Notes under the pieces: model-generated
What the model saw: the letters and a program-made list of their open reading frames with translations, nothing else
Told to the model about the DNA's origin: nothing
The model's database searches: none
NCBI RefSeq assembly: GCF_017086465.1
Contig: NZ_CP070961.1
Span: 3,658,001-3,722,000, forward strand
Length of the DNA: 64,000 bases
Source: Nocardioides sp. zg-1228
GTDB lineage: Bacteria; Actinomycetota; Actinomycetes; Propionibacteriales; Nocardioidaceae
Reading direction: 5' to 3'
Part shown: piece after piece, positions 53,237 through 61,419 of the stretch
How the letters are laid out: every line of letters starts with the position of its first letter
Numbering within the stretch: position 1 is the first letter of the stretch
Program-made: the position numbers and the translations under genes

Positions 53237-54532
53237 CTAGGCGGGCGGAGACGCGCCCGTCGCGCGGCGCCCGCGCTCGGCGACGGCGTGCTCGTCGGTG
53301 CGCGAGTCGTAGGACCAGAAGTCGCGCAGTGCGACCGCGGTCAGCAGGACCCCGCCGACGCACGCCACGCCACCGCTCACGATCGCCCCGCGCACCGACC
53401 AGGCGTCGGCCACGAAGCCCGCGCGCGTCTCGCCGACCATCGGACCGACCGAGTAGGACAGCATCTCGATGCCGGCGAGGCGCCCGCGCATGGTGTCGGG
53501 GATCGTCTGGTTCCACACCGTCGAGCGGAAGACCGCCGAGACCATGTCGGCCGCCCCGGCGAGCGCCAGGAACAGGCACGCCAGCCCGAACGACGGCATC
53601 AGCCCGGCGAGCGCGATGCAGCCGCCGTAGAGGCTGGCGGCGATGACGATCGCCCGGCCGTGGTGGTGCACCCGCCCGATCCACCCGCTGAGCGCGGTGG
53701 CGACCAGGGCACCGACGGTCTCGGCCGAGTAGAGCAGCCCCAGCAGCTCGGGCCGGTCGAACACCTCGTGCGCCAGGGCGGGGAACAGCACCACCGGGAT
53801 GGCCAGCATCATCGCGGCGATGTCGACGACGTAGGTGCCGAGGAGGTCGCGACGCCGCAGCGCGTAGGTGAGACCCTCGTGCACGCCGCGCAGGCTCGGC
53901 GGCGTGGTCTCGCCGTCGTGCGGGTAGGGCCGCATGGCCGCGAACAGCACCGTGGCGACCGCGTAGCCCGCCATGCCCGCCACGAAGCACCACCCGACGC
54001 CGACGTAGGCCATCAGCAGGCCGCCGATGAGCGGTCCGAGCAGGACGCCGAGCTGCATCGCGAAGCTGCTGAGCGCGTTGGCGGCGGCGATCTGGTCGTG
54101 CCGCACGGTGCGCGGCTCGAGCGCCTCCCGCGACGGACGCTGCATCGAGCTCGCGGCCGCGTAGAGCGCGGCGACGACGAAGATCAGCCAGACCCTGGGG
54201 TGCGCGGAGAACGCGTTCCACGCGAACACGCCCATCAGCACGACCTGGACGACCCCGGTCACCACGAGCAGCCGGCGCCGGTCGACGTGGTCGGCCAGCG
54301 CGCCGCCGTAGAGCCCGAACACGATCAGCGGCCCGAGCTCGACCAGGCCCACGAGCCCGACGAGGAGGTTGGACCCGGTGAGGTCGTAGATCGCGAACGG
54401 CACGGCGACGTAGGCGACCATGCTGCCGAGGTAGAACACGCTGCCGGCGGTGAACAGCAGCCGGAAGTCGCGCGACTCGCGCAGCGGGGTCACATCCATC
54501 CGCAGGGAGCGGAGTCGGTCGGTCCAGGTCAC
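53237..54532 (-). CDS. MFS transporter
   Basis: An MFS exporter of about 431 residues with twelve predicted spans, of the enterobactin-exporter/EntS-like (MFS_3) group. Features are SRDFRLLFTAGSVFYLGSMV at the start, GALADHVDRRRLLVVTG in loop 2-3, and SSMQRPSREALEPRTV in the middle. GTG 54532 is preferred because VTWTDRLRSLRMDVTPLRES is the usual start of this group; an ATG at 54577 is also in frame. It is followed on the same strand by nothing close. Substrate unknown. Confidence 0.82.
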   Translation of the reverse strand: MTWTDRLRSLRMDVTPLRESRDFRLLFTAGSVFYLGSMVAYVAVPFAIYDLTGSNLLVGLVGLVELGPLIVFGLYGGALADHVDRRRLLVVTGVVQVVLMGVFAWNAFSAHPRVWLIFVVAALYAAASSMQRPSREALEPRTVRHDQIAAANALSSFAMQLGVLLGPLIGGLLMAYVGVGWCFVAGMAGYAVATVLFAAMRPYPHDGETTPPSLRGVHEGLTYALRRRDLLGTYVVDIAAMMLAIPVVLFPALAHEVFDRPELLGLLYSAETVGALVATALSGWIGRVHHHGRAIVIAASLYGGCIALAGLMPSFGLACLFLALAGAADMVSAVFRSTVWNQTIPDTMRGRLAGIEMLSYSVGPMVGETRAGFVADAWSVRGAIVSGGVACVGGVLLTAVALRDFWSYDSRTDEHAVAERGRRATGASPPA

Positions 54533-54628
54533 GAGCGACCAGTCTCCCCGATCGCGGCGCGCCGGCGCACCCGACATTGCGCACGACGTGCCCGGCCTCG
54601 TGTCCGGCCTCGTGCCCGCGCGGGTCCG

Positions 54629-55531
54629 TCAGGAGACGGCGCGGACCTCGACCACCTCGTGGCGCGGCACGGCGCTCTCGCGGCGGGCCGAGCAGGTGAG
54701 CCGGTGGGTCGTCTCCCCCGGCACCCGGCGCACGACGACCTCGACCGGCTCGTGCCCGCGCACCTCGAACCGGGCGGTGGTCAGGTCGCCGTCCACGCGG
54801 ACGGCGCCCGGGCGCACGTCGTCGAGGCCGACGAGGCCGTGCTCGTGGCGCAGCGCCACGTCGGCCGCCTGGACCGCCATCGGCAGGTCGGACCGGCCGC
54901 GGAGGTGCTCGAGCAACACCTCGCCCGCCGCCGTGGCAGCGGCGACGCGCTGCGCGGACCCGGCATCGAGGTCGCCGTAGTAGAGCCCGCGCGGCAGCAC
55001 GACGAGGTTGCCGGCGAACCGGTCACCCCCGACGTGGGACACCTCCCACACGGCGTCGGCGTGCGGGCCGTCGGCGAGCGCCCGCGCGACCGGTCGGCCG
55101 CGCTCGGCGCAGCACGCGTCGTGGCGTCCGTGGGTGCAGACCGCGAGCACCGGGGCCGGCTCGGGTGGGAGGCCGAGGCTCTGCCCACGGCCGAGGGCGG
55201 CCAGGTCGAGGTCGCGCACGTCCTGCACGCGGTCGAGGTCGACCGCCTCGGCCCAGGAGCCCGGGCCGGCGACGCGTGCGGCGACGACGCGGGTCGGACC
55301 GCCGGGGGCGCTGCGGCCGGGACGGCGGACCAGGAGCACGCGTACGCGGTGGCGCCGGGACTGCTCCTGCAGGTGGGCGCCGACGCCGTCGGGGAGCCGA
55401 GCGTCGCGCAGCGCGTCCGCGCCCCACGGCCCGGGGTGCTCGACCAGCAGGAAGCTGCGCACGGTGGAGGCGGTGCCGGCAAGCTGGTCGCCGCGCTCGC
55501 GGCTGGCCGGGGCGCACCGGAAGGCGGTCAC
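54629..55531 (-). CDS. Suc_Fer-like (sucrase/ferredoxin-like) protein
   Basis: A 300-residue protein of the Suc_Fer-like family, with a thioredoxin-like [2Fe-2S]-type region: VCTHGRHDACCAERGRPVARAL (Cys residues about 138-148) and EVSHVGGDRFAGNLVVLPRGLYYG (about 170-193), both diagnostic. It starts at GTG 55531, overlapping the cupin gene stop as GTGA. Such proteins may carry electrons; here it is coupled to an oxygenase, which fits supplying it with electrons. The exact role is not known. Confidence 0.82.
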   Translation of the reverse strand: MTAFRCAPASRERGDQLAGTASTVRSFLLVEHPGPWGADALRDARLPDGVGAHLQEQSRRHRVRVLLVRRPGRSAPGGPTRVVAARVAGPGSWAEAVDLDRVQDVRDLDLAALGRGQSLGLPPEPAPVLAVCTHGRHDACCAERGRPVARALADGPHADAVWEVSHVGGDRFAGNLVVLPRGLYYGDLDAGSAQRVAAATAAGEVLLEHLRGRSDLPMAVQAADVALRHEHGLVGLDDVRPGAVRVDGDLTTARFEVRGHEPVEVVVRRVPGETTHRLTCSARRESAVPRHEVVEVRAVS

Positions 55532-56544
55532 CGCACGACCTCGAGCAGCCCTTCCCGGACCAGCCGGCGGCACAGCACCAGCGCGCTCTCGGCGTCGAGC
55601 GGGGCGAGGTCGCCCGGCGTCAGCTCCGCGTGGGCGGCGACGTGCTCCAGGGCCGGACGGACCCGCGCCGGCACCCGGACGACGCGGTCGCCGATCAGCA
55701 CCCGGACCGTGCCACCGTCGTCGACCAGCACGCAGGGATGTCCGCGCCGGCGGCGCAGGCGGGTGTCGGCGTCGATCGTGGCCAGCGACGCGCGGTCGAG
55801 CAGGGCACCCGCCAGGCGCGGCGGGCGGTGGCTGACGAACCGCTCTGCCTGTCCGGCGGCGAGCGCCGCGGGGTCGAGCCGGCGGACGGCGTCGGCGAGG
55901 GTCGTGAGGTGGCCCGACAGTCCCGCGGCCAGGCGGGCCGGGTCGCTGAGGTAGCCGGCGGGCAGGTGGTCGTCGGGCACGTCGGCGAGCAGCCCCTCGA
56001 CCTCACGGGCGAGGAGGGCCCGCCAGGTCAGCTGGTTGATGCCGATGGTCAGGTGGAGCGAGACGGACTCCTGCGCACGCGCGGCGTGGGGGGTGCCGGT
56101 TGGGAGGTAGGCCACCACCCCCGGCTCGAGCAGCAGGTCGCCGGGCCCGCCCTCGCCGTGCACCTCCCACCTCTTCGTGCCGTGGGTCTGCACCACGAAC
56201 ACGTCGTGGGAGTCGGAGTGGACCGCGAAGCCCTGCGCCCCGGGCGGGGTGAGGTAGGCGTTGGCCTGGCAGGGGTGGCCGAGCTCGAGCTCGAGCTCGG
56301 CGACGAGGTCGCCGACGGGCGAGCAGTAGCGCTGGAGGCCCTGCAGCACGATCGTCGCGCCCTCGTCGTGCAGGCGCATCAACTTCTCCGGGTCGACCAG
56401 CCCGGTCAGCGGCCTGCCGGCGAGGCTGCCGCCGCGGGTGAAGGACGACTCCGGCAGCACCGACCCGTTGCGGGCGACCCGCACGGCCGGCGTGCGGATC
56501 GCGGTCTGGGTCAGGAGATGGTCGACGTCGGCGAGCGAGAGCAC
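55528..56544 (-). CDS. JmjC/cupin-type oxygenase (Fe(II)/2-oxoglutarate-dependent, ribosomal-oxygenase-like)
   Basis: A cupin of 338 residues from GTG 56544, probably longer. The JmjC core reads NAYLTPPGAQGFAVHSDSHDVFVVQTHGTKRWEV, with the His-x-Asp iron site in HSD and the distal His in PTGTPHAARAQE, followed by the winged C-terminal domain seen in ribosomal oxygenases. The open frame continues 35 codons upstream with family-like residues (LDRLTGDAQTFLDKVWASS), but has no ATG/GTG there; a CTG at 56649-56647, overlapping the stop of the Asp-rich gene as CTGA, could be the true start. Confidence 0.8.
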   Translation of the reverse strand: MLSLADVDHLLTQTAIRTPAVRVARNGSVLPESSFTRGGSLAGRPLTGLVDPEKLMRLHDEGATIVLQGLQRYCSPVGDLVAELELELGHPCQANAYLTPPGAQGFAVHSDSHDVFVVQTHGTKRWEVHGEGGPGDLLLEPGVVAYLPTGTPHAARAQESVSLHLTIGINQLTWRALLAREVEGLLADVPDDHLPAGYLSDPARLAAGLSGHLTTLADAVRRLDPAALAAGQAERFVSHRPPRLAGALLDRASLATIDADTRLRRRRGHPCVLVDDGGTVRVLIGDRVVRVPARVRPALEHVAAHAELTPGDLAPLDAESALVLCRRLVREGLLEVVR

Positions 56545-56645
56545 CTCGGCGCCGTAGGCCGGATCGGTGCGGTGGACGTGGACGGACGACGCCCAGACCT
56601 TGTCGAGGAAGGTCTGGGCGTCGCCCGTGAGGCGGTCGAGAGCGC

Positions 56646-56879
56646 TCAGAGCGCGGTCCCGTCGGTGCCGTCGGCGTCGGTCGAGTCGCCGTCGGTGGCA
56701 TCGGTCGAGTCACCGTCGGTGCCGTCGGCGTCCGCGCCGTCGGCGTCGGTCGAGTCGCCGTCGGTGCCGTCGGCGTCGGTGCCGTCGGCATCCGTCCCGG
56801 GACCGGCCGCGACGCCGGTGGGGTCGACGCCCTCGGTGCTCATCTCGTCGTCGCCGAGGGGGTTGTCAGGAGTCGTCAT
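56646..56879 (-). CDS. Small Asp-rich repetitive protein
   Basis: A 77-residue acidic protein. ATG 56879 has GGGAGGAA at a good distance. The first 28 residues (MTTPDNPLGDDEMSTEGVDP...) are distinctive, and the rest is a low-complexity tract built from DADGTDGDST-type units at DNA level (repeats of GACGGCACC-like codons). The tract could bind calcium or act as a peptide substrate. It is the first of three tightly coupled genes (Asp-rich, cupin, Suc_Fer). Confidence 0.65.
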   Translation of the reverse strand: MTTPDNPLGDDEMSTEGVDPTGVAAGPGTDADGTDADGTDGDSTDADGADADGTDGDSTDATDGDSTDADGTDGTAL

Positions 56880-56985
56880 GGGTTCCTCCCAGTCGCACCG
56901 TGACGGTCGGTCCGTCCCGGGTCTGTGTCGAGTCTGGCGCTCGGTGTCCCTCCCGTTCCACACCCCGGTGGACGGGGTCTCGTCC

Positions 56986-58065
56986 TCAGTAGCGCTGGTC
57001 CTGCCAGAGCAGGCCCGCCGCGGCGTACTCGGTGGGGTTGCAGTAGCCGCCGTAGGTGCGGTAGCGCTCGGGCGAGATGAGCTCCTTGGCGCAGTCGGCG
57101 GCGTGCTCGAGCGGCGCCCAGTCGGGTGCCATCGGGACGGTCGGCACCGCGGGGTCGGGGTTGACGTCGGGGACGAACACCTCGGCGGAGCGGGCCACGA
57201 GCTCGTCCCAGCCCTCCCGGGTCCCGCCCCAGTTGTAGAACTGCTTCATGTGCGCGCACTCGTGGATCGCGATCCCGAGCTTGCTGATCTCCGGCTCGGC
57301 CGTGAGCGTCGCGAGAGTGGCGGCGTCCATGGTGATGCCGTGCTGCCAGCTGAAGACGCCGGTGCGGTCCCCGGTGATACCGGTGGTGTCGATCGTGATG
57401 TTGGCGTTGGGGCACAGCGAGGCGATGGGCGCGTAGAAGCGCGCCTGGTCACCGGTGTACATCGCCTGGTTCTCGAACCTGACGCTCACCGGCTTGGAGG
57501 CCACGCTGCGGCGCGCGCGCCGCGGGCCCTTGGTGATCTTCTTGGTCTTGAGGCGGTAGTCGACCTGCTGCGCGGGGACACCGGCGGGCACCACGTGGGC
57601 CGGGATCCGGGCGGTGACGAGCTGGCGGCCGATCTTGCCGCGGGCCCCGCTGACCTTGCGCCACTTGCCTCCGTCGACCCGCGCCTGCACGAAGACCTTC
57701 TTGGGCTTGATGGGCTTGACGCCCCGGTAGGTCTTCCACGCCGCCTGGACCTGGACGCCGGTGCCGGAGCCGCGGATGGCGGTGCTGAAGCCGAAGCCGT
57801 CGATGCGGTTGTACTTCTTGCCCCAGAAGGCGAAGAGCGGCCTGCGCGCGGCGCGGGCGGAGGACGTGCGTGCCGAGCCGGGTGCCTCCACCACGAGCGG
57901 CGCCGGCGGGGGCAGTGGCTGCACGTCGCGGGTCGTCAGCGCCACGTCGGGAGGAGTGCGGCGCTCGGCGTCGGGGGCGGCCGCGACGGGACCGGCGACG
58001 AACGCCGTGGACAGGACCACCCCCGCCGCTGCCAGTGCGGTGGTGAGACGTCGACCTGCTCGCAT
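56986..58065 (-). CDS. Secreted protein with HExxH-like motif, unknown family
   Basis: A 359-residue secreted protein. ATG 58065 starts a signal peptide (MRAGRRLTTALAAAGVVLSTAF...VAAAPD, cleavage near 30). A Lys-rich beta region (about 85-210, with AAWKTYRGVKPIKPKKVFVQARVDGGKW) resembles the Ig-like/fibronectin repeats. The C-terminal part contains AIHECAHMKQFYN (about 270), an HExxH zinc motif, and two Cys pairs. It may be a metallopeptidase, but I do not recognise the family. Confidence 0.68.
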   Translation of the reverse strand: MRAGRRLTTALAAAGVVLSTAFVAGPVAAAPDAERRTPPDVALTTRDVQPLPPPAPLVVEAPGSARTSSARAARRPLFAFWGKKYNRIDGFGFSTAIRGSGTGVQVQAAWKTYRGVKPIKPKKVFVQARVDGGKWRKVSGARGKIGRQLVTARIPAHVVPAGVPAQQVDYRLKTKKITKGPRRARRSVASKPVSVRFENQAMYTGDQARFYAPIASLCPNANITIDTTGITGDRTGVFSWQHGITMDAATLATLTAEPEISKLGIAIHECAHMKQFYNWGGTREGWDELVARSAEVFVPDVNPDPAVPTVPMAPDWAPLEHAADCAKELISPERYRTYGGYCNPTEYAAAGLLWQDQRY

Positions 58066-58164
58066 GTGTTTCGCTCCGTGTCGGGTGGGGTGTCGGGTGG
58101 GATGCCGGGGTCCCCCCTGCCTACCCGGCGGAGCCGGAGGGCAAACGCCCGGCACGCGGTCGGG

Positions 58165-61092
58165 TCACAGCAACCCCCGGCGCCGGGCGACGGCCGCGGC
58201 CTCGGTGCGCGAGGCGGCGTCGAGCTTGGCAAGGATGTGGGAGACGTGGACCGAGACGGTCTTGGTGCTGATGAAGAGCTGCTTGCCGATCTCGCCGTTG
58301 GACCTGCCCTCCGCGACGAGGGCGAGGACCTCCGCCTCCCGCGGCGTCAGGCTCGCCGCGTGCTCGGAGGTGGCCGGGGTGGCGGTGGAGCCCTGCGCGG
58401 TGAGCTCGTCGAGCATCGGCTGGGCGCCGATCGCCCGGGCCACCTCGCGCGCCAGGTCGGCGACCTGCCGGGCGCCGTCGGCGTCGCCGGCCGCGCGCAG
58501 CACCCCGGCCAGCCGGACCCGGGTCTGGGCGAGCTCGGGGACGCTGCCGTAGGCCACGGCGGCCTCCTCGGCCGTGCGCCAGGCCGACACGAGCTCGTCG
58601 GCCGATGGCGGGCCGACCTGGGCCAGCCAGCGCCACCGCAGGTGCTCGGCGGTGCGGCGCGCGACCCACATCCGGTATTCGGGGCCCTGGCTGTCGTCGT
58701 AGGGGGCGTAGAAGTCGATCACCCGGCCGCCGTCGGCCGCCAGCCGCTCGACGTCGCGCGCGGCGCACTCGCGCTCGTCGGCCGACTGGCGATGGGCGGC
58801 GGCCGCGAACGCGGTGAGCGCCAGCGTCGCGAGCCGCAGCCGGGCCTGGAACCACTCGTGCCACAGCGGCACGACCGCGGTGACGACGTCGTCGTAGACC
58901 GACAGTGCGAGCGCCCCGTCGCCGGCGGCGGCGGCGCGCAGGATCTCGGCCGCGGCCGACGAGATCGCGGTCAGCCCGTCGGTGGTCCAGTGCTCGCGCA
59001 GCCGCTCCAACGCCTGGGCCTTGGATCTGCCACGCAGGCCGATGACGATGAACATCTGGTGCGCGAAGTAGGCCCACTCCGAGACCATGGGCGGGCTCTG
59101 CCCGCTCACGTCGAGGAGCTCCCACGCCTCGTCGAGCAGGCCCTGGTGGGTGAGCACGACGGCGAGCAGCAGCCGCGCCTCGGCGGGGTAGGGCGACCAG
59201 GTCAGACCGCCGACCTCGCTGCGGGCGATCACCTCGCGATAGACCTCGACCGCCGCGGCGAGGTCGCCGCCGTCGTGGTGCGCGCGCCCGAGCAGGTAGA
59301 GCGCCCGCAGCTCCGGCTCGATCAGGCCGGCACGACGCGCCCGGTCGGCCGCCGCCCGCCACCCGACGACCGCACTGGACCCACCCTCGGGGTCGAGGCC
59401 GGCGACGGTGGCGTGGAGCTCGACGGCCAGGCTGGCGAGGTCGTGGCGCTCGGCGAGCTCGAGGGCCGGCAGCGCGACCGCCCGCGCCTGGTCGTCGTGC
59501 CAGCCGACCAGGGTCTGGGCGTGCACCAGCAGGGCCCGGGCCAGCAGCTTGGGCGGCCCCGTGCGCAGCAGCTCGACGGCCTCGGCGGCGGTCTCGCTGG
59601 GCGACTCGGGGCTGTCGGTGAGCAGCAGCGCGGAGGCCAGCGCCGTCAGCAGCTGGCCGCGGTCGACGTCGGCGCCCTCGGCGGGCAGGGCGGCCAGCCG
59701 GGCGCGCAGCACCTTGACGGCTTTGGCGACCCGGCCCGAGGCGATCAGCGCCTCGGCGCAGCGGCGGGCGAGGGCGAAGTCGTCGATCCCGGGCACCGGC
59801 TCGCGGGAGGTGTCGACGAGCTCGAGCGCGTCGAGGAAGTGGGTGGCCGCCTCGGCCGGACCGCCGACGGCCAGCGCCTCCTCGCCCGCCTCGATCGAGG
59901 CGCGGACGGCGACGGGAACGTCGTGGGCCCGGCGGGCGTGCTGCGCGAGCTCGGCCGCCGTGCCGACCGCGCGGCCCTCGCCGAGGGCGGCGACGAAGTC
60001 GGCGTGCAGCCGCATGCGCTCGCCCGGCAGCAGGTCGTCGTAGACGGCCTCGCCGAGCAGCGCGTGGCGGAAGGCGTAGGTGTCGCCGCGGGAGGCGATC
60101 AGCACGTGGGCGTCGACCGCGGCGCGCAGCGCGGCCTCGAGCGCGGCGGCGTCGAGGTCGGAGACGGCGGCGAGCAGGCCGTGGCTGACCTGGCGGCCGG
60201 CGACCGACACGATGCGCACGACCTGGCGCGTCGTCTCGTCGAGGCGGTCGAGGTGGACGAGCAGCACGTCGGCGAGCTCGCCGGGCACCTGCCCGGACCA
60301 CGCGGCGTCGACGAGCTCCTCGATGAAGAACGGGTTGCCCTCGGCGCGGTCGACGATGGAGGTGTACTCCGCCTCGGACAGCGTCGAGGGGTGCAGCGCG
60401 CGGACGAGGAGGCGTACGGCGTCGGCGGCGAGCGGCTCGAGCTGGAGGCGGTCGACGCCACGCAGGCGCATCCACTCCGCCACCTGGCGACGCAGCGGGT
60501 GGCGGCGGTGCAGGTCGTCGGCACGGTAGGACACGACCAGGGCGACGCCCGGGACGGGGCGGGAGAAGAGATAGCTGAGCATGTCGCGCGTGGACTCGTC
60601 GGCCCAGTGGGCGTCCTCGACGATCACCAAGACCGGGGCGTGCTCGGCGGCGGCGGCGAGGAGGTGGCCGAACGCGTCGTAGACGTTGCCGCGGTCGAGG
60701 GCCTGGTCGCCCGAGGCGCTCTCGCCGCTGCGGATGCGCCGGCCGGGCTGGAGGCGGGCGAGGGTGGGGTGGGCCTCGAGGACGCGGCCGGTGACATCGG
60801 GGTGGTCGGCGACGAGCCCGCCGAGGATCTCGGAGAAGGGGAGGTAGGGCAGGGAGCTGTCGGCGAGGTCGAGGCAGTGTCCGGCGACGACCTGCCAGTC
60901 GGCGTCGAGGGCGGCGTCGCGCAGCGCCATCAGCAGTCGGGTCTTGCCCACACCCGCGTCGCCGGCGACGAGCATCGACCGGACCGTCTGGCCGGTCCCG
61001 GACGTGCGGATGCCGAGCTGGGCGGTCAGCTGCTCCAGCTCGGCATCGCGTCCGATCAGATCGGTGGTCCGCAGGGCCGGCACGGACGCCAT
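58165..61092 (-). CDS. Large LuxR-family transcriptional activator with AAA/STAND ATPase domain
   Basis: A 975-residue regulator of the LAL/MalT class. An N-terminal P-loop ATPase carries Walker A VAGDAGVGKT (about 44-51) and Walker B VLVIVEDAHWAD (about 155-165). A TPR-like helical region (about 430-880) and a C-terminal LuxR HTH follow (SLTPREAEVLALVAEGRSNGEIGKQLFISTKTVSVHVSHIL, about 905-945, in pieces). ATG 61092 is used. Ligand and targets are unknown; the 38-residue gene upstream may be linked. Confidence 0.9.
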   Translation of the reverse strand: MASVPALRTTDLIGRDAELEQLTAQLGIRTSGTGQTVRSMLVAGDAGVGKTRLLMALRDAALDADWQVVAGHCLDLADSSLPYLPFSEILGGLVADHPDVTGRVLEAHPTLARLQPGRRIRSGESASGDQALDRGNVYDAFGHLLAAAAEHAPVLVIVEDAHWADESTRDMLSYLFSRPVPGVALVVSYRADDLHRRHPLRRQVAEWMRLRGVDRLQLEPLAADAVRLLVRALHPSTLSEAEYTSIVDRAEGNPFFIEELVDAAWSGQVPGELADVLLVHLDRLDETTRQVVRIVSVAGRQVSHGLLAAVSDLDAAALEAALRAAVDAHVLIASRGDTYAFRHALLGEAVYDDLLPGERMRLHADFVAALGEGRAVGTAAELAQHARRAHDVPVAVRASIEAGEEALAVGGPAEAATHFLDALELVDTSREPVPGIDDFALARRCAEALIASGRVAKAVKVLRARLAALPAEGADVDRGQLLTALASALLLTDSPESPSETAAEAVELLRTGPPKLLARALLVHAQTLVGWHDDQARAVALPALELAERHDLASLAVELHATVAGLDPEGGSSAVVGWRAAADRARRAGLIEPELRALYLLGRAHHDGGDLAAAVEVYREVIARSEVGGLTWSPYPAEARLLLAVVLTHQGLLDEAWELLDVSGQSPPMVSEWAYFAHQMFIVIGLRGRSKAQALERLREHWTTDGLTAISSAAAEILRAAAAGDGALALSVYDDVVTAVVPLWHEWFQARLRLATLALTAFAAAAHRQSADERECAARDVERLAADGGRVIDFYAPYDDSQGPEYRMWVARRTAEHLRWRWLAQVGPPSADELVSAWRTAEEAAVAYGSVPELAQTRVRLAGVLRAAGDADGARQVADLAREVARAIGAQPMLDELTAQGSTATPATSEHAASLTPREAEVLALVAEGRSNGEIGKQLFISTKTVSVHVSHILAKLDAASRTEAAAVARRRGLL

Positions 61093-61136
61093 TGTGTCGT
61101 GCCCGTCCGACACTCGCGGGTCGATCGCGGTGCGGG

Positions 61137-61253
61137 TCACTTCCCGGTGTCGTCGGCGCGGACGCGGGTCCAGCGGCGCCGGCCGTAGTCCTTGCGGATC
61201 CTGTCGTGTCGGTAGTTGATCTCGGCGCTCAGGAAGCTGTCGGTGGCGAACAT
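61137..61253 (-). CDS. 38-residue basic protein upstream of the LuxR regulator
   Basis: ATG 61253 has a strong GAGGAGAAGG ribosome site. The peptide MFATDSFLSAEINYRHDRIR continues as KDYGRRRWTRVRADDTGK: a helical, basic, Tyr/Arg-rich small protein. The open frame extends 22 codons upstream, but the internal ATG has the ribosome site. It lies 44 bp before the LuxR ATG on the same strand. I recognise no function; similar short proteins (starting with a TDxFL-AEI-YR pattern) appear familiar from actinobacteria. Confidence 0.62.
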   Translation of the reverse strand: MFATDSFLSAEINYRHDRIRKDYGRRRWTRVRADDTGK

Positions 61254-61419
61254 GTCCTTCTCCTCGTCTCCCGATCCCGTCTGGATCGATGTGTCGAGGT
61301 TGCGCCCGTGAGGTAGCACCCGGCATCGGGTGCGTGCCCTATCCGCGGCCGGCCGGCTACCTCAGATGCCCCGCCCGGCGCGTACGACGCCCGCCTGAGG
61401 TAGCCGGTGGGCCACCGGC

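Follow-up and report, generated by a model that had tools for sequence, protein, structure and literature searches.

A recurring actinobacterial gene unit of an Asp-repeat peptide, a JmjC oxygenase and a Suc_Fer-like ferredoxin, with a predicted role in oxidation of peptide Asp residues

What would a JmjC-type oxygenase do when its gene overlaps, at one end, the gene of a short peptide made of Asp repeats and, at the other, the gene of a Suc_Fer-like ferredoxin? This arrangement lies on the minus strand of a 64,000-nucleotide stretch of Nocardioides sp. zg-1228 (NZ_CP070961.1, positions 3,658,001 to 3,722,000), which we call the window and in whose numbering all coordinates are given. An earlier note had described three genes coupled by overlaps, the first encoding a leader-like N-terminus followed by Asp repeats, and had proposed a system resembling those that produce ribosomally synthesized and post-translationally modified peptides (RiPPs). 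We find that the three genes form one recurring unit that reaches far beyond the source genome, throughout the actinobacterial phylum. We predict, with somewhat better than even confidence, that the oxygenase oxidizes many Asp residues of the peptide in a RiPP-like manner, with the ferredoxin as electron source. The unit contains the following features.

56880..56905, minus strand: sequence preceding the peptide ATG, with the ribosome-binding site GGGAGG (by eye).
56646..56879, minus strand: Asp-repeat peptide gene, 77 amino acids (ATG 56879, TGA 56646), with the N-terminal segment MTTPDNPLGDDEMSTEGVDPTGVAAGP followed by (T)DADGTDGDSTD-type repeats.
55528..56649, minus strand: JmjC/Cupin_4 (JmjC_2) oxygenase, 373 amino acids from CTG, with a CTGA overlap with the peptide stop.
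55531..55758, minus strand: C-terminal part of the oxygenase (approximately residues 298-373), a beta-beta-beta-alpha-alpha winged helix resembling a RiPP recognition element (RRE) in the AlphaFold2 model, which as a whole protein matches NO66, MINA and YcfD.
54629..55531, minus strand: Suc_Fer-like protein, 300 amino acids from GTG 55531, with a predicted thioredoxin-like [2Fe-2S] ferredoxin fold, the motif CX8C...HX3D and a GTGA overlap with the oxygenase stop.

Both overlaps and the coordinates given in the earlier note are exact, and the peptide has the leader-like start and the repeats ascribed to it. The oxygenase frame contains no ordinary start codon at the overlap, only CTG 56649, and judging from the sequence the protein seems to begin at this codon, such that annotation from the next ordinary in-frame start (GTG 56544) drops 35 residues. 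Among 43 Nocardioidaceae loci in which the start position could be located, the codon is CTG in 21, GTG in 6, TTG in 4 and another in 12. The oxygenase, hereafter also the cupin, matches the Pfam family JmjC_2 (PF08007; E 1.7e-19, 70 bits against a cut-off of 22), and the ferredoxin matches Suc_Fer-like (PF06999; E 4.8e-18, 66.3 bits against a cut-off of 34.9); each is the sole protein of its family in the source genome. Scans of the peptide against Pfam and NCBIfam returned no match. Of 507 stop-to-stop frames of at least 60 codons in the window, the peptide frame is one of three that hold a 60-residue stretch with at least 25% Asp, and Asp-richness alone is thus weak evidence, because two further frames share it; the evidence from conservation is far stronger. 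The closest relatives are Nocardioides species, with cupin identity of up to 89%.

To score the small upstream genes, we used a peptide filter of our own setting (Asp at least 12%, Arg below 6%, and D, G, E, A, S and T together above 70%), which missed peptides at two loci that are recognizable on a looser reading (L251 and L288) and let through an acidic, non-repetitive peptide at another (L140). The cupin is present in 21 of 39 genomes comprising the source genome and its relatives. A species-level genome collection yielded 53 loci, of which one weak partial match (L083) was set aside, and among the remaining 52 close-relative loci the peptide was found in 50, the other two beginning at a contig end, and a Suc_Fer gene just downstream in all 52. 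A family profile (A1) built from 27 cupin sequences and run on 394 genomes of the class Actinomycetes matched at 1e-20 in 129 genomes and reached at least 300 bits at 75 places, where an Asp-rich peptide lies upstream of 73 cupins and a same-strand Suc_Fer downstream of 64. These counts bear out, in a phylum-wide sample, the co-occurrence that the earlier note had anticipated, and they contradict the opposite scenario that it had raised, in which cupin homologues mostly lack an Asp-rich gene.

Cupins with lower scores were sampled as 35 hand-picked places among at least 75 listed below 300 bits. The filter passed only two of them (L160 and L175), a same-strand Suc_Fer was found only at L160, and an opposite-strand Suc_Fer occurs at L189. 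L160, the only one of the 35 with both partners, is apparently a broken family member, and a cupin fragment below 300 bits in genome G135, outside the 35 sampled, also has an adjoining Suc_Fer. When all searches were merged into 168 loci, a set that is partly redundant since the searches overlap, the peptide was detected in 160; of the eight remaining loci, five are at contig ends and one, L251, was overlooked only because of the filter. In this set the distance window drops L093 and L156 although their Suc_Fers adjoin, which accounts for 62 versus 64 in different recounts.

The unit also extends past the class. A profile search of 396 genomes of the phylum gave matches at 1e-60 in 53, of which 38 belong to other classes, and 28 of 37 loci fetched from those classes contain both partner genes by the filter. 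The looser reading adds peptides at L251 and L288, and two of the exceptions (L284 and L286) end before the peptide position. In the reverse direction, a DNA pattern coding for DGGADGGA matched at least once in 118 of 388 class genomes and at least three times in 37, and 35 of these 37 hold a high-scoring cupin when the tables are compared by eye; in each of the two exceptions (G279 and G390), a pair of overlapping matches shares one contig and the third match is on a different one. This test counts genomes irrespective of where the matches lie relative to the cupin, and it cannot detect the clade A repeats found in the window, which are described below.

The peptides fall into two main core types that mostly track two clades of the oxygenase tree. 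Repeats of the D[AGS]DGTDGDSTD kind predominate in clade A, which includes the window, Nocardioidaceae and members of other classes, and those of the EGPADGGAxxGxxDGGADGGA kind predominate in clade B; L156 and L158 are among the exceptions. An N-terminal L-x-D-[DE]-[DE]-[IM] segment is common to many peptides in either clade, as in PLGDDEMSTEG (window), LDDDDMTTSG and GLTDEDIETV. A loose form of this leader pattern was found in 91 of 120 non-redundant peptides, and among the 29 peptides without it, some carry a near variant that falls just outside. In a set of 160 peptides picked by composition, the C-terminal 60 residues consist of 27% each of Asp and Gly, 16% Ala, 11% Thr and 7% Ser, and Cys does not occur; the cores contain almost no aromatic residue or Lys. 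The DNA that encodes them varies: 450 DGGA units from 51 loci use 48 DNA spellings, and 42.5% of third positions differ within a peptide. Similarly, 25 leader codons compared among 16 Nocardioides sequences show 0.039, 0.084 and 0.250 differences per site at codon positions 1, 2 and 3. Because the changes are biased toward third positions, the amino-acid sequence itself is selected, and we conclude that the peptide is under purifying selection.

Several loci depart from the repeat-peptide form. Two loci of genus g65 (L135 and L140) have, next to a high-scoring cupin, an acidic peptide without repeats that ends in ...PTVEPGA/PTIEPGA, and the only Suc_Fer of these genomes is of the HX3H form; they provide a natural contrast. 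Lower-scoring JmjC cupins at L168, L169, L171 and L173, some of which belong to genus g45, are preceded by a different short peptide, like ...EVEVEELAEVTSRDITAGGDSDGTDSSSDFI. Other JmjC cupins, at L176-L181, L188-L190 and L193, lie downstream of small peptides whose middle is similar and whose tail is SDG-like (e.g., ...AVEEITTERSRGDQPSDGGGTGRSDTNDGIR); judged by their sequences, these are apparently further JmjC-peptide families without an adjacent same-strand Suc_Fer.

The Suc_Fer proteins of the unit are distinguished by one motif position. The predicted model has a mean predicted local distance difference test score (pLDDT) of 93.7, and its top seven PDB matches are all thioredoxin-like [2Fe-2S] ferredoxins, with modest similarity (best E 0.008, approximately 100 of 301 residues aligned). 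At the last motif position, 147 of 150 unit Suc_Fers have Asp, two have Cys and one has Gly, which gives HX3D instead of HX3H. Thirteen Suc_Fers encoded away from the cupin have His in eight cases and Asp in five, and all five Asp forms come from family f31, in genomes with the cupin; four of these five genomes have no Suc_Fer adjoining it. In a second set of 20 non-adjacent Suc_Fers (His 14, Asp 6), five Asp forms belong to genus g45, in genomes with lower-scoring cupins, at least one of which (G381) lies behind a short peptide ending DITAGGDSDGTDSSSDFI, and the sixth is from a genome without a cupin at 1e-20 (G054). Finally, a unit Suc_Fer profile run on the 394 genomes placed every match of at least 287 bits next to a cupin or cupin fragment, by eye, with the single exception of G338. 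These patterns suggest that the HX3D form mostly goes with the oxygenase-peptide system, even in trans. Some Nocardioides have a second Suc_Fer upstream of the unit, with a stand-alone HX3H motif and, in the five examined, no neighboring peptide.

The oxygenase retains the putative iron ligands of its family. H143, D145, H187 and K158 (numbering of a 27-sequence alignment) are invariant in 27 of 27 sequences and align with NO66 residues; we take the first three to be the Fe(II) ligands HxD...H and K158 to be the 2-oxoglutarate Lys. The AlphaFold2 model (pLDDT 90) gives whole-chain Foldseek matches to NO66, MINA53 and YcfD, its JmjC, middle and winged-helix parts are laid out as in ribosomal oxygenases, and the predicted C-terminus has the RRE-like beta-beta-beta-alpha-alpha order. 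Against the family profile, NO66 is nearest with 117 bits and E. coli YcfD scores 44.

Starting from what could be computed directly (the unit and its conservation, the conserved iron-ligand residues, the predicted folds of two proteins and the selection on the peptide), we propose that the JmjC oxygenase, with iron, 2-oxoglutarate and O2, would oxidize multiple Asp residues of the neighboring repeat peptide, and that the modification would most likely be beta-hydroxy-Asp. In most members the oxygenase would recognize the N-terminal L-x-D-[DE]-[DE]-[IM] segment, perhaps via its C-terminal winged helix, and then work along the repeats. Suc_Fer would be a ferredoxin of the thioredoxin-like [2Fe-2S] type dedicated to the unit, maintaining the iron in reduced form or providing electrons in some other way, and the product would be a disordered poly-hydroxyaspartyl peptide fit for metal-ion binding. 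Asp is the candidate target because, apart from small residues, it is the one that the cores have in common in large amounts. The beta carbon of His or Arg is where related enzymes of the ribosomal-oxygenase type place the hydroxyl group, which would make beta-hydroxy-Asp the nearest chemistry. To our knowledge, bacteria generally lack ascorbate for re-reducing stalled Fe(III), which makes a dedicated ferredoxin plausible. The parts of this proposal are held with different firmness. The peptide is very probably the substrate of the oxygenase, and Asp hydroxylation has an even chance, or slightly better, of being the modification. The ferredoxin possibly serves the oxygenase, with the balance tipped a little the other way, and it could alternatively act on metal bound by the product. 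Metal binding by the modified peptide is less likely than not.

A number of observations weigh against this proposal. The earlier note's expectation of a conserved leader with a variable acidic core holds for the 91 peptides with the pattern and breaks down in part of the DGGA clade B (L096, L119, L122, L125 and others), where peptides start almost directly with repeats and the leader is nearly absent. Eleven of the 75 high-scoring loci lack an adjacent Suc_Fer; genome-wide, four have an HX3D form elsewhere, four have only HX3H and three have none. The three without any (G133, G234 and G156) have repetitive peptides all the same. The four restricted to HX3H are G290, with a repeat peptide and 1.1 kb of sequence downstream, G119 and G309, with plain acidic peptides, and G098, without a peptide. 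In other classes, 5 of 37 loci lack a Suc_Fer: it is missing from the 1.5-2.5 kb downstream of the cupin at L248, L249, L250 and L287, and from L276, whose sequence ends 136 bases upstream of the cupin. The distance matrices of cupin and Suc_Fer correlate strongly (r 0.845, n = 111 loci, best of 1000 permutations 0.115), but this value is inflated, because shared descent alone can largely explain it. The nearest solved relatives of the oxygenase carry the names of hydroxylases of His or Arg, with a single putative asparaginyl hydroxylase in addition, and none is named as an Asp hydroxylase. Furthermore, a conserved protease or exporter was not seen in 73 neighborhoods of approximately 6-8 kb with crude gene calls of at least 80 amino acids. 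Of the RiPP-like system that had been proposed, the small gene conserved beside a putative modifying enzyme stands, and what appears to be lacking is the protease or exporter, which RiPP systems usually but not always have, in some members the leader, and at those 11 loci the adjacent Suc_Fer.

These observations invite alternatives. The one that survives best, which we consider unlikely but worth serious attention, is that the peptide would buffer metal (iron), with Suc_Fer working on the metal bound to it, as a ferric reductase might, and not on the oxygenase. The peptides are poly-acidic, Cys-free and probably disordered, with no obvious signal sequence by eye and no conserved exporter, the HX3D Suc_Fer stays with the system when non-adjacent, and beta-hydroxyaspartate serves as an Fe(III) ligand in siderophores, all of which fits such a buffer. 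However, no iron-uptake gene was noted among the conserved neighbors, and the three genomes that have repeat peptides and no Suc_Fer count against it.

It is somewhat less likely again that the oxygenase acts on the peptide by something other than simple hydroxylation, such as crosslinking, decarboxylation, desaturation or formation of aspartimide/isoaspartate at Asp-Gly, the ferredoxin then being a genuine redox partner in that reaction. Over the C-terminal 60 residues of the 160 peptides, the residue after Asp is Gly in 1364 cases, Ala in 641, Ser in 305 and Thr in 103, which provides abundant Asp-Gly sites. A separate redox protein, as present here, is unusual for an ordinary 2-oxoglutarate hydroxylase, and 2-oxoglutarate-dependent macrocyclization in RiPPs has reportedly been described in 2025 in the Journal of the American Chemical Society (JACS), going by the title of the paper. 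Weighing on the other side are cores that offer no Cys and almost no aromatic or Lys crosslink partners, and the 73 neighborhoods, in which no further conserved enzyme gene was seen with crude gene calls.

A role as a ribosomal oxygenase acting on uL16 or similar, with the small open reading frame (ORF) as only an attenuator or binding partner, is very unlikely. In its favor, the architecture matches and the source genome has no second PF08007 protein. In a quick tree of 161 rows, with weak basal joins, the high-scoring cupins required 5 label changes compared with a shuffled mean of 31.1, although L143 and L287, both high-scoring, sit on long branches that belong to neither main clade and the low-scoring L159 falls inside clade A. 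E. coli RoxA lies outside both family clades on a branch of 3.57, and the cupin does not group with it, contrary to the uL16-type assignment that the earlier note had considered as an alternative; together with the profile scores, in which YcfD remains far below NO66, this position disfavors an orthologue of RoxA, the uL16 arginine hydroxylase. Moreover, only those 75 places in 394 genomes reach 300 bits, and the third-position-biased changes indicate that the peptide sequence itself is selected. That the small gene is a chance or slippage product of low complexity beside an ordinary operon, as might be suspected since GC-rich DNA readily yields Asp-Gly repeats and two other window frames are Asp-rich, is ruled out by the synonymous diversity among repeat units and the conserved position, which is phylum-wide and accompanied by the leader motif.

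The same tree holds a further observation. Clade A and clade B forms of the unit both occur within one genus (L096 and L097 compared with the window), and clade A also contains rows from other classes, which suggests horizontal transfer.

Beyond the unit, the window contains three neighboring genes of note.

53237..54577, minus strand: major facilitator superfamily (MFS) transporter just 3' of the unit, a possible exporter in close relatives only and outside the conserved unit.
56986-58155, minus strand: putative secreted protein encoded upstream of the peptide, with a HECAH (HExxH) motif but without a Pfam match.
58165-61326, minus strand: large regulator with AAA_16 and LuxR-type GerE domains.

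In the 73 neighborhoods, no clusters other than those of the cupin and Suc_Fer extend widely over different families; the short peptides, which BLAST did not group from one family to another, were detected by a separate scan. An MFS transporter occurs within approximately 1 kb after Suc_Fer in nine neighborhoods, all on the Nocardioidaceae side, and its cluster appears in 11 of 73, two of these more than 2 kb away, on which grounds we rejected it as part of the unit. The HECAH-motif protein was rejected as a leader protease, its cluster being present in just 3 of 73. The next commonest cluster, an ATP-binding cassette (ABC) transporter ATPase, was found at no fewer than 6 of 20 distant loci and 2 of 53 others, 1.7-5.5 kb away and in either orientation where visible, and was likewise set aside. 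The AAA_16/GerE regulator cluster lies on the unit strand in 27 of 73 neighborhoods, all on the Nocardioidaceae side, which may reflect either synteny or regulation. A defense system was rejected: at E 0.01, none of the three proteins matched a PADLOC model.

If the proposed Asp oxidation is correct, relatives of the JmjC ribosomal oxygenases would have a second large role in bacteria, namely peptide tailoring, acidic repeats would mark out an additional RiPP-like class, and Suc_Fer, a family about which little is understood, would gain a concrete partner. The natural variation of the unit (Suc_Fer adjacent, elsewhere or missing; leader present or absent; repeat or plain acidic peptide) offers ready-made tests, and the HX3D/HX3H split provides a sequence mark for the specialized ferredoxin. 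A step beyond the known kind would be taken if the product were an intracellular metal-binding polymer and the ferredoxin cluster had an Asp ligand. A new class of ribosomal peptide of this sort, an intracellular poly-beta-hydroxyaspartyl metal binder with dozens of hydroxylated Asp residues, assisted by a Cys2-His-Asp [2Fe-2S] ferredoxin, is a prediction that we regard as rather unlikely.

How does the unit compare with known systems? Among open-licence papers, a coverage that makes this a weak negative, we found none on the trio of peptide, JmjC protein and Suc_Fer, and the available portion of PMC7794033 mentions neither a cupin nor JmjC. For the ferredoxin, the available text of PMC8482512 gives the ligands of the Apd1/Aim32 type as CX8CXnHX3H. 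Like Apd1 and Aim32, the unit Suc_Fer has the PF06999 domain, CX8C, the first His and a predicted thioredoxin-like ferredoxin fold; unlike this bis-histidinyl type, it has the second His replaced by Asp in those 147 of 150 proteins. We met no report of a Cys2-His-Asp ligand set for thioredoxin-like ferredoxins in the literature checked, which concerned Apd1/Aim32 only.

For the oxygenase, the likeness to NO66, MINA53 and YcfD/RoxA covers the full-length fold as predicted, the HxD...H ligands, the Lys at the 2-oxoglutarate position and the C-terminal winged helix. In contrast to these proteins, the unit cupins occupy their own clades and are tied to a repeat peptide and mostly to Suc_Fer. One available passage describes fish and algal proteins in which RRE-like domains are joined to JmjC PF08007, with the closest bacterial homologues in RiPP-like contexts (PMC12710340); that passage mentions neither an Asp-repeat precursor nor Suc_Fer, and the unit family may or may not be among those homologues. 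A more distant parallel is found on a plasmid of Streptomyces clavuligerus (L275:5769-7164), where an acidic peptide (WP_009999493.1) with the leader SLEPDEIEV lies just upstream of a homologous cupin (WP_009999494.1). This pair differs in its short DPDPFDP-like core without long repeats, in a cupin score of 267 bits and in having no Suc_Fer in the 13 kb examined.

The closest functional precedent comes from biphenomycin-type pathways. In the sections available, BipG, a JmjC protein of biphenomycin biosynthesis, hydroxylates Orn at the gamma position in a ribosomal precursor (PMC12707348), and PbsQ is described as a cupin-like hydroxylase of Orn (PMC12257519). The unit resembles BipG/BpmG/PbsQ in that, going by those sections, a JmjC/cupin 2-oxoglutarate oxygenase of a RiPP pathway modifies a precursor side chain there (PMC12707348, PMC12257519). 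Compared by their description only, biphenomycin clusters differ in targeting Orn and in including a multinuclear non-heme iron-dependent oxidative enzyme (MNIO), a B12-radical S-adenosylmethionine (SAM) enzyme, an arginase and a TldD-type protease, whereas the unit has only an Asp-repeat peptide and Suc_Fer beside its oxygenase. Taken together, these analogies suggest that the tailoring of RiPP-like peptides by a JmjC oxygenase is already known in kind, and that the Asp-repeat/Suc_Fer form is a variant of it.

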